DNA from: Photobacterium profundum SS9
Lineage (GTDB): Bacteria; Pseudomonadota; Gammaproteobacteria; Enterobacterales; Vibrionaceae
Reading direction: 5' to 3'
Length of the DNA: 64,000 nucleotides
NCBI RefSeq assembly: GCF_000196255.1
Contig: NC_006370.1
Coordinates: 2,431,411-2,495,410 of the forward strand
Shown here one piece after another: positions 53,334 through 60,210 of the stretch; position 1 is the first letter of the stretch, and each line of letters starts with the position of its first letter. Under the pieces are notes generated by a model. The model made no database searches. It saw nothing but the letters and a program-made list of their open reading frames with translations, and was not told the origin of the DNA. The position numbers and the translations under genes are program-made.

Positions 53334-55264
53334 TTAGTCCTCCAAAACATTGAGCTTGCGACTGCTAATTTCTTGCTGCAAAAATGCAACAAGTTCATCA
53401 ATCTTAAGTTTACCCAAATCTTTACCCTTGCGAGTACGAACTGCTATTTCGCCTGCTTCGACTTCTTTGTCGCCACAGACAAGCATGTAAGGCACTCGCT
53501 TCAAAGTATGTTCGCGGATTTTAAAGCCAATCTTCTCATTTCTCAAGTCCGCATTGACTCTAATTCCACATTTTTGTAATTTTTTTACTATTTCTTGTAC
53601 ATATTCTGACTGACTGTCAGTAATGTTCATCACTACAGCTTGCTGAGGCGACAACCAAGTAGGGAAGAAGCCCGCATATTCTTCGATAAGAATACCGATG
53701 AAACGCTCTAGTGAACCAAGGATAGCACGGTGAATCATAACTGGGGTATGACGTTCGTTGTCTTCACCCACATATGTTGCACCTAAACACTATGGTAATG
53801 CAAAATCTAGACTGAACAGTACCACACTGCCATGCACGATCTAGACAGTCATGGAGTGTGAACTCGATCTTAGGACCGTAGAATGCACCTTCACCTTCTT
53901 GAATTTCATATGGAATGTCCATTGATTCAAGTGCGACTGTTAGGTCAGATTCAGCTTTATCCCACATTTCATCAGAGCCTACACGTTTTCAGGACGTGTA
54001 GAAAGCTTAACAACAATGTTGTCGAAGCCAAATGTCTGATAAGTATCATACACCATTTTAATACAAGAAGTAACTTCTTGTTGCACTTGGTTTTCAGTAC
54101 AAAAAACGTGCGCATCATCTTGAGTGAATCCACGAACACGCATTAAGCCATGAAGAGCACCTGATGGCTCGTTACGGTGACATGCTCCAAACTCAGCCAT
54201 ATAGTAATGGTAAGTCACGGTATGATTTCAAACCGTGGTTAAAGATTTGTACGTGACTTGGGCAGTTCATTGGCTTGAGAGCGTATTCACGGTTGCTCTG
54301 AACATGTTGTGAACATTGCATGAGCGTATTTGTCCCAGTGACTAGATCGTTCCCAAAGAACGCGATCCATCATTAATGGACCTTTCACTTCTTGGTACTC
54401 ATATTTTGTTAGCTTTTCACGAATAAACAGTTGTAGCTCACGGAAGATTGTCCAGCCATTGTGGTGCCAGAAAACCATACCCGGCGATTCGTGCTGCATG
54501 TGGAACAGATCAAGATGCTCACCAATCGTACGGTGATCACGCTTTGATGCTTCTTCTAGACGAGTAAGGTGCGCTTTTAGCAACTTCTTATCTTGGAAAG
54601 CCGTACCGTAGATACGTTGCAGCATCTTATTGTCACTGTCACCACGCCAGTAAGCACCAGCAACACTTAGCAGTTTAAAGTGCTGACAGAAGCCCATGTT
54701 AGGAACGTGAGGACCACGACACATATCGATGTATTCTTCGTGGTGGTATAAACCTGGACGATCATCGCGAGAAACGTTCTCGTCTAGGATTTCAATTTTG
54801 TAAGTCTCGCCACGCGCTTCAAATGCATCACGCGCTTCCTGCCAGCTTACTTTCTTCTTAACAACGGCATACTTTGTTTTCACAAGCTCTTTCATGCGCT
54901 TTTCAATCGCATCAACGTCGTCTTGTGTTAAAGATTGCTCAAGGTCGATATCGTAATAGAAGCCATTGTCGATCGTTGGACCAATCGCCATTTTAGCTTC
55001 AGGATAAAGTTGCTTGATTGCATGACCTAGTAGGTGCGCACAAGAGTGACGGATGATTTCCAGACCGTCTTCGTCTTTAGCTGTGATGATTGCTAGGCTT
55101 GCATCGTTTTCAATTAAATCGCACGCATCAACACGTTCGCCATTAACACGGCCAGCGATACATGCTTTCGCAAGACCAGGACCGATGTCAGCAGCAACAT
55201 CCATCGTTGAAACAGCGTTATCGAATTGACGTTGACTACCGTCAGGAAGAGTAATTACAGGCAT
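53334..55264 (-). pseudogene. thrS: Threonyl-tRNA synthetase with four frameshifts and one stop
   Basis: Homology to ThrRS runs over the whole length. Intact frame from the ATG at 55264 ([18 protein letters not shown], with AAGGAC upstream) covers TGS, the editing domain and the start of the catalytic core to about 54296. Then lesions follow: an extra base near 54295, an extra base near 54202, a missing A in an A-run near 53987, an extra base at about 53811, and an in-frame TAG at 53790-53792. From 53789 the frame is clean through motif 3 and the anticodon-binding domain to the stop. The zinc-site MNCP segment and motif 2 fall in the disturbed part. Either the sequence is locally poor or the gene is inactive and a second ThrRS exists. 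Confidence 0.9.
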
Positions 55265-55352
55265 TAAAATGTCCTTCACAGTGGTGCCACATACCAAGTA
55301 GCACATGTTGAATTAAATAAAGCTTAGAGAAGCTTTGATGAAAATTTCGAAA

Positions 55353-55400: not shown

Positions 55401-55506
55401 GAAGGCGAACTATAACAAACGCCTACGGGATAATGCAAAGCTACGAACAGATTTATTATTTAATATGTTTAATTAGTAACTAATTGAACATATCTTGTGT
55501 AGTTAT

Positions 55507-55734
55507 CTCGGCTTCTTCCCTTTTCCTTTTATTCAAACTTTCTTGTAAACTATTGGGTTGTTTTGTATCACTCTCATCATGGATTCATCATTTTGCATAC
55601 ACTTTCTCAGCTAAAATCTGGCGAACTAGCCGGTATTCAGCGCTCAAAATTGTCAGAAAACTTAACGTCATTTCCACTAGAAATTTTATCTCTGGCTGAT
55701 AGCTTAGAAATCCTTGATTTATCCACAACCAATT
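55507..55734 (+). repeat. Duplicated promoter and 5' end of the LRR-kinase gene (truncated copy)
   Basis: 228 bp matching 58880-59108 with about five substitutions and one missing base (near 55724). It includes the TTG start and the first roughly 48 codons of the LRR-kinase gene, then breaks off after CCAATT. The missing base would shift the frame near the end. It is a pseudogene fragment and one half of a direct repeat. Confidence 0.92.
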
Positions 55735-55753: not shown

Positions 55754-56451
55754 CTATGCGTTTAGCCTATGAATACATCTTTTGAAACCATGCTCTTCAA
55801 TTTCAATAAGTTCGTAACCAGTAACACCATCTAAAACTTCAGATAAAGCATAATCAACAATATTTCCTTCTTCAATTACTCCAGCAGTATTCAACGATTC
55901 CTTTCTTTTCAATTGAATAATTTCACCAATGTAATCTTGATCAATAGCTGTCCTATCTGTTACATTCCCATGATAATTTCAAACACTTCTAGTTCATTAA
56001 ACGGCTTTTTAAAACCGCCTATAGAATCAATAAAATTCTTATCTTTATTATTTAACGTTTTATATAATTGCAACCCTTCAAAATCTCTTATGAAAATAAG
56101 TTTCCCTGTCGAAATAACTAGCTTCTTTGTATACAAAGAAACATCCACATAATTATATGATAATAAAAGCTCAGCCAACTCACTTCGCTCTGGTTGTAAG
56201 CATTCATTATAAGACTTAATGCTAAAATATGATAACACAGGCGCTTTTTTACTGACTATTTCTTTAAGAGATGCTAATTCAACTATTGAAAATACAGGTG
56301 TTACTTTTGTGTCGTCACAAAAATTTATTTTATCTGAATACGCTACAATTTTTTCATTTAGATACTTAAAATAAAAACCATCAGAAGCCAATGTGGATAA
56401 TGATATAAATACAGATGATAACATTGTGATTTTCAACATTAATTTAATCAT
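55754..56451 (-). pseudogene. Secreted protein of unknown function, apparently frameshifted
   Basis: The first frame (56451 to 55960) encodes 163 residues with a Sec signal peptide (LMLKITMLSSVFISLSTLASDG, cleavage about residue 23) and a polar mature part with two cysteines. It stops at 55960, but a neighbouring frame continues without a start codon for about 70 codons to a stop at 55754 (NVTDRTAIDQDYIGEIIQLKRKE, later GYELIEIEEHGFKRC). A one-base shift near 55970 would join them into about 231 residues. Its ATG overlaps the stop of the upstream gene (ATGA), indicating translational coupling. No family is recognised. It could also be a genuine shorter protein. Confidence 0.5.
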
Positions 56452-56630
56452 ATTTTACACCCCATATATATTGCCTTCCAAAAAGCATATTCCTTAGGGC
56501 TAGACTGATGCTTTACTGCTTGTCTGTAGGCTAATTCCTCCATTTTCTTTCGTTTAATAACATTAATACCGACATACGATTGAAAATAACACTCCCAGTT
56601 TACTTGATATATTGAGTATGCCGTTTGATT
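56448..56630 (-). pseudogene. Unknown gene, 3' part (split by the IS66 element)
   Basis: The last about 59 codons of the interrupted gene: NQTAYSIYQVNWECYFQSYV..., ending KAIYMGCKI. Upstream it continues in frame from the segment at 58199-58464, through the shared target codons Asn-Gln-Thr. The stop TGA overlaps the ATG of the secreted protein. Open sequence inside the element (to 56690) would add a spurious N-terminus. Confidence 0.75.
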
Positions 56631-56722
56631 GTAACCGTTCACCAGCCCCCTATTGACACAAAAAAATGTGATGGAGCGCACTTGATCCACATTTGGCTAT
56701 TGAGTGATCCTCCCCACACGTC

Positions 56723-58170
56723 ATGCTTACCAGTATGAAAAAGAAATTATCATTTAAAGAAGAACCACCGACGGTAAATAGCCTCAATGAAGCTCAAGCT
56801 CTTATCCAGGAGCTATGGGAGAAATTGCGGCACTACGAAGACAAGCTCTCGACGAGTTCTAAAAACTCATCAAAGTCGCCATCATCTGATGGCCCAAAAG
56901 AGAGGGCTGAGCGAAAAAAGCTGAAAGCCCTCGTAGCGGCAATAAGATTGGAGCTCAACAAGGTCACGAGGGCAAACGGCGAAAACTGAGCAAACTCAAA
57001 AAGACAGATACTGTTGTACCCTGTGTGCCCAGTTCACTGTGCCCTTGTTGTGGCGATAGTCATATCGCGATTAATCAAAAACCATCCTATCGGCATCAAG
57101 TGCATGAAATCCCTGAGCCAATTGTAAATATTACTGAATATCAAGTCTTTCATGGCCGGTGTCAAAATTGCCAGACTTCCGTTAAGGGGAAGCGGCCTCA
57201 AGATACCCCACAGGGAATAATGGGCCCTAACCTCATGAGCTACATTGCCCTGCTGGCTGGACAGTTTCATCTCAGCGTTCGTAAAATACAAGAATTACTC
57301 AAGCTGCAGTTAGGCACCTCCTTTTCCACGGGCGCTATCTCCGAGGCTCAAGGAAAAGTATCATCGATGCTTACGCCTTTACATCAAGCCGTTCGAGACG
57401 CCATTCAAAAAGCGCCAATGGTTCATATTGATGAGACTTCTCACATCAGAAATGGTGAAAGCAGCCTACGCTGGTGTTGGCTGATGTCGAGTGATGATTG
57501 GGTCTATGAACGTGTTTTGTTTTCACGCTCAACCCACTCGGCAAAAGTGATGCTGAATGAAAAATTTGCTGGGGTTGTTATCTCCGATCAATGTGCCAGC
57601 TATAATTGGCTCAATCCTGAAAAACATCAATTTTGCTTAGGCCACCTAAAGCGAAATCTCCAACAAATGGCCGATTACAGTGGGGGTGGGTTAACCGCTT
57701 TTATTGGCAAACGACTGACTCTGCTTATCAATATGATTTTTCGCACTCAACATTGTTATGAAGAAGAAAACATTTCAGCGGAGATATACTTTCGGAGAAT
57801 GAAGCGATTGAGAAAGAGCTTAACGCGCTGGTTACACAAAGGCGCGGATGTCACAACATCTAGATATAGCGGTCGATGTAAATTCATTCTTAAGCACGAA
57901 GTCAGTTTGTGGGTATTTCTGACGGCTCCCTTAACAATCCCATTAACCAACAATGAAGCCGAGCGCCGGTTACGTGGAAGCGTGATCATGCGAAAAATCA
58001 GTTTTGGTACAAGCTCCGATCGCGGTGATAAGTTTCGAGGCCGAATACACACTCTTGTTGAAACCTGCAAGAAACGAAGTATGTCACCATTTATCGCTCT
58101 TCAACAGATTGTCAATGCTGTCGTGAAAAAACAGCCATATCCTGACATCTTCAATCTTTGTTCAGGGTAG
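56723..58170 (+). CDS. tnpC: IS66-family transposase TnpC, two frames joined by a probable -1 frameshift
   Basis: Frame 1 (56723-56989) encodes the leucine-zipper-like N-terminus (NEAQALIQELWEKLRHYEDKL, NSSKSPSSDGPKERAERKK) and would end after 88 residues. Frame 2, in the -1 frame, is open from the A-run onward and encodes the zinc-binding C-P-C-C region, then the DDE core (MVHIDETSHIRNG, VVISDQCASYNWL, NNEAERRLRGSVIMRKISFG) to 58170. Slippage at the A_AAA_AAG heptamer at 56914-56920 reads ...KK-AESPRSGNKIGAQQGHEGK and gives one TnpC of about 482 residues. A missing A in the run (A6 in place of A7) would be the alternative explanation. Confidence 0.85.
56901..56973 (+). promoter_or_regulatory. 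Candidate programmed -1 ribosomal frameshift signal
   Basis: Three elements occur in order: AGAGGG at 56901-56906 (Shine-Dalgarno-like), the heptamer A_AAA_AAG at 56914-56920 in the correct phase (CGA AAA AAG), and a perfect 8-bp stem GCCCTCGT (56927-56934) with ACGAGGGC (56966-56973) starting 6 nt after the heptamer. This is the arrangement of the dnaX frameshift signal. Confidence 0.65.
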
Positions 58171-58198
58171 CAGTCAAGCTACTCTGGTGAACGCTTAC

Positions 58199-58464
58199 GT
58201 TTGATTAGCTTCTGATGCGAAGCCTTTTGCAGTAACTTTCGCCACAGTTTGAAGAGTATCACTTGGTATCAATTTAAATACTTCTTTTACATTTCCGGCT
58301 GTAGCCCCTCTAAACGAGGAACCGCCAAAAATACTAAAGAGGTTACCTATTGTTAACCAAATTCGTCCATGTTTTTCCAAGTCATGTAATTCCTTTATTT
58401 GTTCGATCCCTTTAATACTTTCTTCATCGAAGGTTATATTTACTATTGCTGGACATTTTTTCAT
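58199..58464 (-). pseudogene. Unknown gene, 5' part (split by the IS66 element)
   Basis: The first about 88 codons, starting MKKCPAIVNITFDEESIKGIEQ and ending SEANQT at the insertion. A short Gly/Ser-rich hydrophobic stretch (IGNLFSIFGGSSFRGATAG) lies in the middle. Joined to 56448-56630 it gives about 146 residues. The ATG overlaps the stop of a small upstream frame (ATGA). No family is recognised; it is part of a minus-strand operon with the secreted protein. Confidence 0.72.
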
Positions 58465-58701: not shown

Positions 58702-58860
58702 ACACAAAAGAGACTCAGAACACTACCGATCGTAAAAGTTCTCAGGTTTATATTGCAACATGTATTGCCGAAAGGATTAAAACATTTGCATGATTACGGT
58801 TTGAATACGCGAATAAACCCGTTAACTGCGGTGTCTGGCCATACCGACAAATCGTTAATT
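58702..58860 (+). pseudogene. Probable IS91-family transposase remnant
   Basis: A frame with no proper start reads TLPIVKVLRFILQHVLPKGLKHLHDYG, which resembles the C-terminal RRFLQHVLPKGFxxIRYYG signature of IS91/ISCR-type Y2 transposases. The similarity ends soon after. It lies directly before the downstream copy of the 228-bp repeat. Confidence 0.6.
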
Positions 58861-58879
58861 TTTATAAAACGAACTATTT

Positions 58880-59108
58880 CTCAGCTTCTTCCCTTTTCCT
58901 TTTATTCAAACTTTCTTGTAAACTATTGGGCTGTTTTGTATCACTCTCATCATGGATTCATCATTTTGCATACACTTTCTCAGCTAAAATCTGGCGAACT
59001 AGCCGGTACTCAGCGCTTAAAATTGTCAGAAAATTTAACGTCATTTCCACTAGAAATTTTATCTCTGGCTGATAGCTTAGAAATCCTTGATTTATCCAAC
59101 AACCAATT
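58880..59108 (+). repeat. Direct repeat, downstream copy (intact LRR-kinase 5' region)
   Basis: Counterpart of 55507-55734, differing by about five substitutions and one indel. It carries the start of the full-length LRR-kinase gene. Confidence 0.92.
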
Positions 59109-60210
59109 AACGTCTTTACCGCAAGAATTAGTACAACTTAAGAAGCTTAAAATTATCTTTGCCTCAAATAACCAATTTGAAGTACTGCCTGAAGTGCTCG
59201 GTCAACTACCGCATTTAGAAATGGTCGGCTTTAAGGCAAATAAGATACATTCAGTACCAGAGCATTCTTTACCGGCTCAGCTACGCTGGCTCATTTTGAC
59301 TGATAACCAAATCAAAACGTTACCCAATTCGTTAGGTGAACGCCCACGTCTACAGAAATTGGCGTTAGCAGGTAACGGTTTAACACACCTACCTCAGTCA
59401 ATGTCGCAATTAGACAACCTAGAGTTAGTACGTATTTCTGCCAATCAGTTAACAGAATGTCCAGAGCAACTGCTTTCACTGCCTAAGCTCGCTTGGTTTG
59501 CCTTTGCAGGTAACCCGTTTAGCCAAACAAAAAGCGCAATTCAATCAGTACCTGTATTGCCATCTTCCAGTTTCTCCTTACAAGATGTTTTAGGGCAAGG
59601 CGCATCAGGCGTTATTTCTAAAGCGACGTGGAATAATAAATATCAAACAGACTTCCCCGAAGATATTGCCGTTAAAGTGTTTAAAGGCGAAGTAACAAGC
59701 GATGGGTATCCTGATGATGAATTACAAGCCTGCTTAAAAGTCGGTAACCACCCCAATGTCGTGCAGTCTTTAGCACAAGTGAACGAAGACGGTTATTTAG
59801 CCTTAATCATGAATTTAATCCCTTCTCACTTCCGCAATTTAGGGTTACCACCCTGCTTTAATAGCTGTACCCGAGATACTTTTTCACCAGACTTCACCTT
59901 GTCGGTTGAACACATAGATAAAATCGTTAAGCAGATGGAAGAGGTTTTTGTTCATTTGCATTCAAATCAGGTCTGTCATGGCGACTTATACGCACACAAC
60001 ACCCTTTATGATGAAGAAGCGAATATCATTTTTGGCGATTTCGGGGCTGCGAGCATGTATCACATGCTAACTGAAGCGCAACAAGCATGTATCAAGCAGA
60101 TTGAACACCGTGCACTGTGTCATTTCATTGATGATCTGTTAAGTGTTTGTGCTGAAGGAAATAGAGACGAGAAAACGTTTGATTTACTAAAACAAAAATT
60201 AAGTCACTAA
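58966..60210 (+). CDS. Leucine-rich repeat protein with C-terminal protein-kinase domain
   Basis: A 414-residue protein. Residues about 15-190 hold seven to eight LRR units (LEILDLSNNQLTSLPQEL and repeats). Residues about 205-400 form a eukaryotic-like kinase: Gly loop LGQGASG (210-215), Lys237 in IAVKVFK, catalytic loop CHGDLYAHN with Asp340, and GDFG with Asp358. All core catalytic residues are present. I chose the TTG at 58966 because MHTLSQLKSGELAG matches the start of related bacterial LRR-kinases; the open frame to 58753 is IS-derived. The promoter and first codons are duplicated at 55507-55734. Targets are unknown; it appears cytoplasmic, with no signal peptide. Confidence 0.85.
   Translation: MHTLSQLKSGELAGTQRLKLSENLTSFPLEILSLADSLEILDLSNNQLTSLPQELVQLKKLKIIFASNNQFEVLPEVLGQLPHLEMVGFKANKIHSVPEHSLPAQLRWLILTDNQIKTLPNSLGERPRLQKLALAGNGLTHLPQSMSQLDNLELVRISANQLTECPEQLLSLPKLAWFAFAGNPFSQTKSAIQSVPVLPSSSFSLQDVLGQGASGVISKATWNNKYQTDFPEDIAVKVFKGEVTSDGYPDDELQACLKVGNHPNVVQSLAQVNEDGYLALIMNLIPSHFRNLGLPPCFNSCTRDTFSPDFTLSVEHIDKIVKQMEEVFVHLHSNQVCHGDLYAHNTLYDEEANIIFGDFGAASMYHMLTEAQQACIKQIEHRALCHFIDDLLSVCAEGNRDEKTFDLLKQKLSH

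Follow-up and report, generated by a model that had tools for sequence, protein, structure and literature searches.

A probable programmed -1 ribosomal frameshift in the transposase gene of an IS66-family insertion sequence from Photobacterium profundum SS9

In a stretch of 64,000 nucleotides from Photobacterium profundum SS9 (NC_006370.1, positions 2,431,411 to 2,495,410; the window hereafter), the transposase gene of an insertion sequence is divided over two reading frames. This raises the question whether the gene is broken or whether ribosomes change frame within it. An original prediction, made from the letters of the window, described the break as a dnaX-like frameshift cassette. As judged from the comparison of sequences set out below, this mobile IS66-family element with a single transposase cistron very probably makes its transposase by programmed -1 ribosomal frameshifting. 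The features concerned are listed in Table 1.

Table 1. Positions in the window of the insertion sequence, its reading frames and its putative frameshift signals
Feature	Position	Strand	Basis or remark
Left copy of 8-bp target-site duplication, GTTTGATT	56623-56630		Identical to 58199-58206
Complete IS66-family insertion sequence, 1568 bp	56631-58198	+	Genomic copies, ends, target-site duplications, inverted repeat
IRL, GTAACCGTTCACCAG	56631-56645		End of the 1568-bp element
ORF1, frame 0, 88 aa (84 aa from ATG 56735), DUF6444	56723-56989	+	Pfam PF20042, E=1.1e-25
Shine-Dalgarno (SD)-like AGAGGG, 7 nt upstream of the heptamer	56901-56906	+	Present here; not conserved in relatives
TGA closing the -1 frame upstream of the heptamer	56908-56910	+	-1 frame opens at 56911
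ORF2, -1 frame, 419 codons, IS66 DDE transposase	56911-58170	+	PF03050 on the part from 57025; NCBIfam NF033517, 325 bits
Slippery heptamer A_AAA_AAG, in phase with ORF1	56914-56920	+	Sequence; A6 in 12/12 genomic copies holding the site
Dual-coded overlap: frame-0 tail of ORF1 and first post-shift codons of ORF2	56921-56989	+	Apparent selection on both frames
5' arm of presumed stimulator stem, GCCCTCGT	56927-56934	+	6 nt (56921-56926) past the heptamer; arm-swap test
3' arm of stem, ACGAGGGC	56966-56973	+	Perfect pairing with GCCCTCGT, 31-nt loop; arm-swap test
IRR, CTGGTGAACGCTTAC	58184-58198		End of the 1568-bp element
Right copy of 8-bp target-site duplication, GTTTGATT	58199-58206		Identical to 56623-56630

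Both the protein and the ends place the element in the IS66 family. The DDE_Tnp_IS66 catalytic domain is present (PF03050, E=8e-34; NF033517 against a cut-off of 180 bits). IS66 elements normally have an 8-bp target-site duplication and terminal inverted repeats beginning with GTAA. The same is found here, where the repeats start with GTAA and the copies end in GTAACCG / CGCTTAC. Elements of this family with an 8-bp duplication are also listed in two published studies (PMC3281130, PMC3056050). The zf-IS66 domain (PF13005) is unreported by Pfam for the piece of the window from 57025, a piece that does not contain the start of that region; it is recognised in a relative with a fused gene, L045 (28.5 bits, cut-off 27.3), and the Cys positions of the region are conserved in eight aligned sequences. 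A single uninterrupted transposase frame, which is usual for IS66 without being definitional, is absent: the gene is in two frames here and throughout the split clade described below, except in the L045 type. Around the element, short minus-strand ORFs at 58195-58464 and 56448-56690 reach into both of its ends, and the insertion may interrupt a minus-strand hypothetical gene. A direct repeat of 220 nt (98%), at 55506-55725 and 58879-59098, brackets the region, its right copy lying within the 5' part of a leucine-rich-repeat/kinase-like ORF (58753-60210).

The reading frames and signals within the gene are as the original prediction had them. The transposase gene occupies two frames, A_AAA_AAG stands in exact phase with ORF1, a spacer of 6 nt separates it from a perfect 8-bp stem, and the -1 frame stays open from the heptamer to the end of the transposase (stop at 58168-58170). 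ORF1 runs from ATG 56723 to a stop at 56987-56989, although a comparison with its relatives favours the in-frame ATG at 56735 as the start. The NCBIfam name for the frame 56911-58167 is IS66 family transposase. The earliest ATG, GTG or TTG in the ORF2 frame is GTG 57025, and the 38 codons ahead of it include residues that are invariant in eight aligned relatives, one of them a Cys. The arrangement is thus one of overlapping ORFs, the second in -1, with a heptamer of the type X_XXY_YYZ in phase within the overlap. Its six As (A6) occupy 56914-56919. On both strands of the window there are 34 AAAAAAG heptamers, and this one alone is followed at 4-9 nt by a perfect 8-bp stem, a feature that about 1% of all window positions possess. 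As for the AGAGGG that completed the proposed dnaX-like cassette, it is present in this copy and absent from most relatives, so that this optional upstream stimulator is not a conserved part of the signal. The pattern used for tRNA-Lys genes gave anticodon UUU in all six matches, and for a CUU tRNA-Lys one match that was not called tRNA-Lys; a divergent gene of the latter kind could have escaped the search. Elsewhere in the genome, ARAGORN reports a tRNA of no assigned identity with the four-base anticodon 'taag' (L153, G000:C2:2064972).

Downstream of the heptamer, the segment 56914-56990 folds with -23.5 kcal/mol (z = -3.42 against dinucleotide shuffles), and 56921-56985 alone gives z = -2.36. 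Among 27 folded sites from the element and its relatives, the same two arms are paired in the minimum-energy fold of 24, beginning about 6 nt past the heptamer; the exceptions are L074, L101 and L131. Generally, the arms vary by lineage: GCCCTCGT/ACGAGGGC in the window corresponds to GCTCTGGTGG/CCAC-A-CAGGGC in Vibrio and to GCCTCGT/ACGAGGC in Moritella. The position of the helix is kept, while its register moves by 1-2 nt between lineages, and for this reason the arms were tested by swapping them between lineages, with other placements as controls. Native arms pair at -17.1 kcal/mol vs -15.1 for swapped arms (permutation p=0.0011 for 14 sequences, 0.011 for 7 lineages). With the alignment corrected (Moritella L088 realigned by one base), the native advantage is -2.9 kcal/mol over the 7 lineages. 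None of 145 other arm placements matches this advantage, the closest control having -2.77 vs -2.91, and none attains the native arm energy; in the series with the same spacing (35 placements), the site alone reaches that energy. Column-by-column pair counts in 7 Vibrionaceae rows gave two-sided changes in 0/10 pairs, and the covariation of the stem therefore rests on the comparison between lineages; 91% of the cells in this set are paired, as compared to 24-53% for slid versions. Of the individual sites, 19/27 fold better than dinucleotide shuffles at p<0.05. Synonymous recoding, by comparison, is beaten in only 5/27 sites when the -1 frame is recoded with the codon usage of the window and in 13/27 when frame 0 is recoded. 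A search of Rfam gave no match. Across these comparisons, the predicted downstream structure is a conserved one, as is looked for in programmed -1 frameshifting.

Relatives of the element occur in a range of bacteria. In a protein search, 28/329 Vibrionaceae genomes match at E<=1e-60, a scan of genome contigs gave 47 loci, and in an order-wide sample 8/394 genomes match at E<=1e-70, the own genome included. Among plasmids, 49 records match, 8 when the search is done with ORF1, and 8 plasmid stretches were taken into the comparison. No relative was found in viral contigs, PDB gave no match by sequence to L045 as query, in the complete E. coli genomes, matches to the L144 element are confined to 34 bases (9/5426 genomes), and further family searches added no relative. 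The split architecture and the heptamer are retained at about 55-64% amino-acid identity. In these relatives, 37-38 codons of open C frame precede the position that corresponds to the ORF2 GTG of the window, and ORF1 needs a -1 shift to enter this frame. Hosts of the split frame with A_AAA_AAG are Vibrio and Photobacterium and, outside the Vibrionaceae, among others Psychromonas (L085), Proteus terrae (L155), an Aeromonas caviae plasmid (L145) and an E. coli plasmid (L144).

The site list comprises 37 distinct site sequences; the pattern behind it missed some loci, e.g., L051, L058, L078 and L141. Without the fused L045, the distant L126 and six sites that belong to a remote group with fused genes, 29 remain, some of them decayed. 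An in-phase A_AAA_AAG is present in 25 of these (for L131 and L133, where an earlier motif was caught first, the phase was checked separately). The other four are L041 (G_AAA_AAG), L088 (A_AAA_AGG), and L090 and L096 (both GCAAAAG), and in L088, L090 and L096 the departure sits in a copy with a broken ORF2. A strict set was restricted to sites followed by an ORF2 of at least 380 open codons, i.e., 13 from the site list and L141, two of the 14 being variants from this genome. The alignment of relatives that had been suggested as a check bears the prediction out: in this set, the heptamer is conserved in 13/14 distinct sites, in each with the six As and their phase, and among the folded sites the stem persists as a helix whose arms fit each other. 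The exception is L041, in which the ORF1 frame is cut short. Close relatives with seven As (A7) and one uninterrupted frame had been named as the contrary case; in the split clade A7 is seen only in L051 and L058, which are decayed copies with 6 and 4 stops. In a distant fused group of Vibrionaceae IS66 elements (L052, L055, L056, L059, L061), A_AAA_AAG lies in phase within an uninterrupted transposase frame, and a -1 shift would lead to termination 9 codons later.

Within the genome itself, a DNA search finds 17 matching places, some of which belong together as fragments of a single copy. The shift site is present in twelve copies (L001-L012), each time with six As. Perfect 8-bp duplications, every one different in sequence, flank 9 of the 11 two-ended copies; L004 has a duplication of 9 bp and L011 has none. 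There is no difference among L001-L004 across the 1568 bp; L006 deviates from them by 4 substitutions and L007 by 5. These distinct, perfect duplications and near-identical copies indicate that the A6 form has moved recently, and no A7 copy able to move it in trans was found in this genome. One copy, L010 (G000:C2:2357999-2362452), has 2779 bp between its ends and seems to carry about 1.2 kb inserted in it.

The overlap shows signs of selection in both frames. Over the 21 codons past the heptamer, 15 sequences differ by 0.18, 0.25 and 0.36 at frame-0 positions 1-3, i.e., least at the first two. Selection ratios were obtained from a count of site classes modelled on methods for overlapping genes and uncorrected for multiple hits. 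With 10 sequences, dNN/dSN is 0.36 for the ORF1 tail (bootstrap 0.20-0.64) and dNN/dNS 0.52 for ORF2 in the overlap (0.31-0.90); with 17 sequences, the dN/dS proxies are 0.35 and 0.55. Ratios that use doubly synonymous sites are 0.91 and 1.3, resting on just 5.5 differences. Thus both frames of the overlap appear to be under purifying selection, as the low proxies make both the frame-0 tail, which is made only without a shift, and the -1 codons ahead of any ORF2 start appear constrained.

In a tree of 24 transposases, 13 split rows and the fused L045 form one clade (support 99/99), and the split/fused label requires two changes. Since several deep rows have long branches, it is uncertain where in IS66 the clade belongs. 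L045 is 98% identical over ORF2 to the split L143 and lacks 11 nt directly upstream of the heptamer, which puts its ORF1 directly in the ORF2 frame. The same fusion has thus been hard-wired by nature at least once.

Other explanations of the split have to be weighed against this evidence. The loss of one A from a run of seven, by mutation or by an error in sequencing, would leave a broken gene, and the window gives some ground for such a suspicion. The gene thrS (threonyl-tRNA synthetase, 53334-55306, minus strand), which adjoins infC-rpmI-rplT-pheS, reads as four pieces of 339, 79, 67 and 145 aa, the first of which has one place only in the genome; that an essential gene should be divided over several frames hints at indel errors in the assembly, and A7 copies do exist among the decayed relatives mentioned above. 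However, the six As recur in every genomic copy that holds the site, including copies that differ by substitutions, the frame-0 tail appears constrained past the shift site, and the same split with A6 is found in other species. These were sequenced separately, which for practical purposes refutes a sequencing error or pseudogene and leaves this explanation with next to no probability. Slippage could also take place during transcription, giving a mixed mRNA pool in which part of the molecules have seven As and a continuous frame. Some insertion sequences do use this mechanism, although on runs of 9 As, 8 in some elements, according to PMC1088944, while the run here is 6 As in the 14 open-ORF2 sites except L041, with 5. 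An exact phase, with a stem 6 nt further on, is required for slippage of ribosomes, whereas RNA polymerase could slip without regard to the phase. On account of the short run, the phase and the stem, transcriptional slippage is rejected as extremely unlikely.

Another possibility is that no fusion is needed and ORF2, translated from an internal start, works with a separate ORF1 protein. GTG 57025 is a formal start, and the NCBI annotation names ORF2 alone a transposase in some records, e.g., L141 (564-1709). The codons ahead of the first ATG, GTG or TTG of this frame are nevertheless conserved and appear to be under selection, initiation there would lose an invariant Cys, and in L045 and the ISKpn15-type L146 a single chain contains both parts. 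Internal initiation, rejected on these three grounds, is therefore very unlikely. Lastly, the fusion may be made by frameshifting while the ORF1 protein is a mere by-product without a function of its own. This is a refinement of the preferred explanation and is compatible with frameshifting. Pfam sees neither a zinc finger nor a DDE domain in the ORF1 protein, which speaks for this view, but in the nucleotides shared by both, the constraint on the post-shift frame-0 tail is similar to that on ORF2, and the tail is conserved in most of the aligned standalone ORF1 proteins. A pure by-product is therefore a doubtful, if serious, option.

Programmed -1 frameshifting hence remains the preferred reading. 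What the comparison brings out is a two-frame gene, a conserved heptamer, a conserved stem with mutually fitting arms, constraint on both frames and recent mobility of the A6 form; that the frameshift event itself is translational is what we infer from these. In the proposed mechanism, most ribosomes would stay in frame 0 on ORF1 and yield a DUF6444 protein of 84-88 aa with a zipper-like helix. A fraction would slip back one base on A_AAA_AAG with two tRNA-Lys, the site being decoded by tRNA-Lys(UUU) and the slip helped by the stem 6 nt past the heptamer. Reading on through ORF2 in the -1 frame, the shifted ribosomes would produce one transposase composed of the ORF1 part, a Cys-rich region and the DDE domain. 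The ORF1 protein would regulate transposition, as products of first ORFs are said to do in other insertion sequences.

Among candidates restricted to 48-154 aa, 65/74 are homologous to ORF1 at E<=0.001 (entries from the P. profundum genome included). Many are labelled DUF6444 in Vibrio, and others come from Aeromonas and Shewanella. The 22-aa tail gave no match when used alone as a query. Fused IS66 transposases are also recognised by the DUF6444 model in their N-terminal part, so that DUF6444 is not solely a frame-0 product. Pfam recognises no DNA-binding domain in ORF1. Its predicted structure, a low-confidence model (mean pLDDT 64.7), consists of helices at 21-48 and 58-86, the first of which is zipper-like and the second of which spans the shift site. 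By analogy, the protein is probably a regulator of transposition, and it may pair with the transposase and damp it. It is moderately probable that, in a subgroup of IS66, standalone DUF6444 arises as the product of frame 0 at a programmed frameshift and is a small regulator, the final ~20 residues of which are made only without a slip. The nucleotides that encode these residues would at the same time specify the linker of the transposase and form the stimulator stem, which has been kept while its register drifted. As part of this reading, about 65 nt would carry three selected messages: ORF1 tail, transposase linker and stem.

Compared to known systems, the element combines features of several. 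In E. coli dnaX, A_AAA_AAG has a stem downstream and an SD-like run upstream, and the shift leads into an early stop and a shorter product. The IS copy in the window shares the heptamer in phase, the downstream stem and the upstream SD-like purine run; it differs in that the shift gives a longer fusion and in that the SD-like run is not conserved. With the IS3 and IS1 families it has in common overlapping ORFs of the orfA/orfB type, although its transposase is an IS66 DDE transposase (PF03050) and its ORF1 is DUF6444, with no Pfam DNA-binding domain. The ISKpn15-like uninterrupted IS66 elements, of the tnpC-only or ISBst12-like group, likewise have an IS66 DDE domain, one transposase cistron and DUF6444 at the N-terminal part. 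In L146 (the ISKpn15 type), L132, L091 and L052, however, this is one uninterrupted frame, whereas it is split here.

The original prediction had not known frameshifting as an established feature of such IS66 elements, and for papers this still holds. A 2016 review lists IS1, IS3, IS5 and IS630 among the families that use frameshifting (PMC5009743), a 2012 Paracoccus study states that reports of trans-frame products were confined to IS1 and IS3 (PMC3281130), and the term IS66 is absent from the main text of PMC4066793, in which IS1 and IS3 elements were analysed. The open-access literature that was searched yielded no paper on frameshifting in IS66 elements, nor one naming 'DUF6444'; an earlier mention may exist beyond it. 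For the deposited proteins, the statement does not hold. The Vibrio IS66 transposases P0067, P0070, P0074 and P0079 at NCBI and the coding regions in L143 and L144 (1457 and 1430 nt, remainder 2) are one product across the same -1 shift. The deposited junction fits a re-reading of the base that directly follows the heptamer. This lies one nt 3' of where the slip is expected, and one residue differs as a result: KKN for KKD in P0070 (compared with the DNA of L038) and, by analogy with it, KKP for KKA in P0067, P0074 and P0079. For the IS66 frameshift, the databases are ahead of the papers, as deposited proteins already read across the shift.

Altogether, these comparisons make a case for adding IS66 to the families whose transposase is made by -1 frameshifting, and they offer a likely identity for the standalone form of DUF6444. 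The region concerned is compact, with two proteins and an RNA stem all seemingly under selection. They also call for caution in annotation, as split pairs annotated as 'DUF6444 + IS66 transposase' can be one gene and not a pseudogene.
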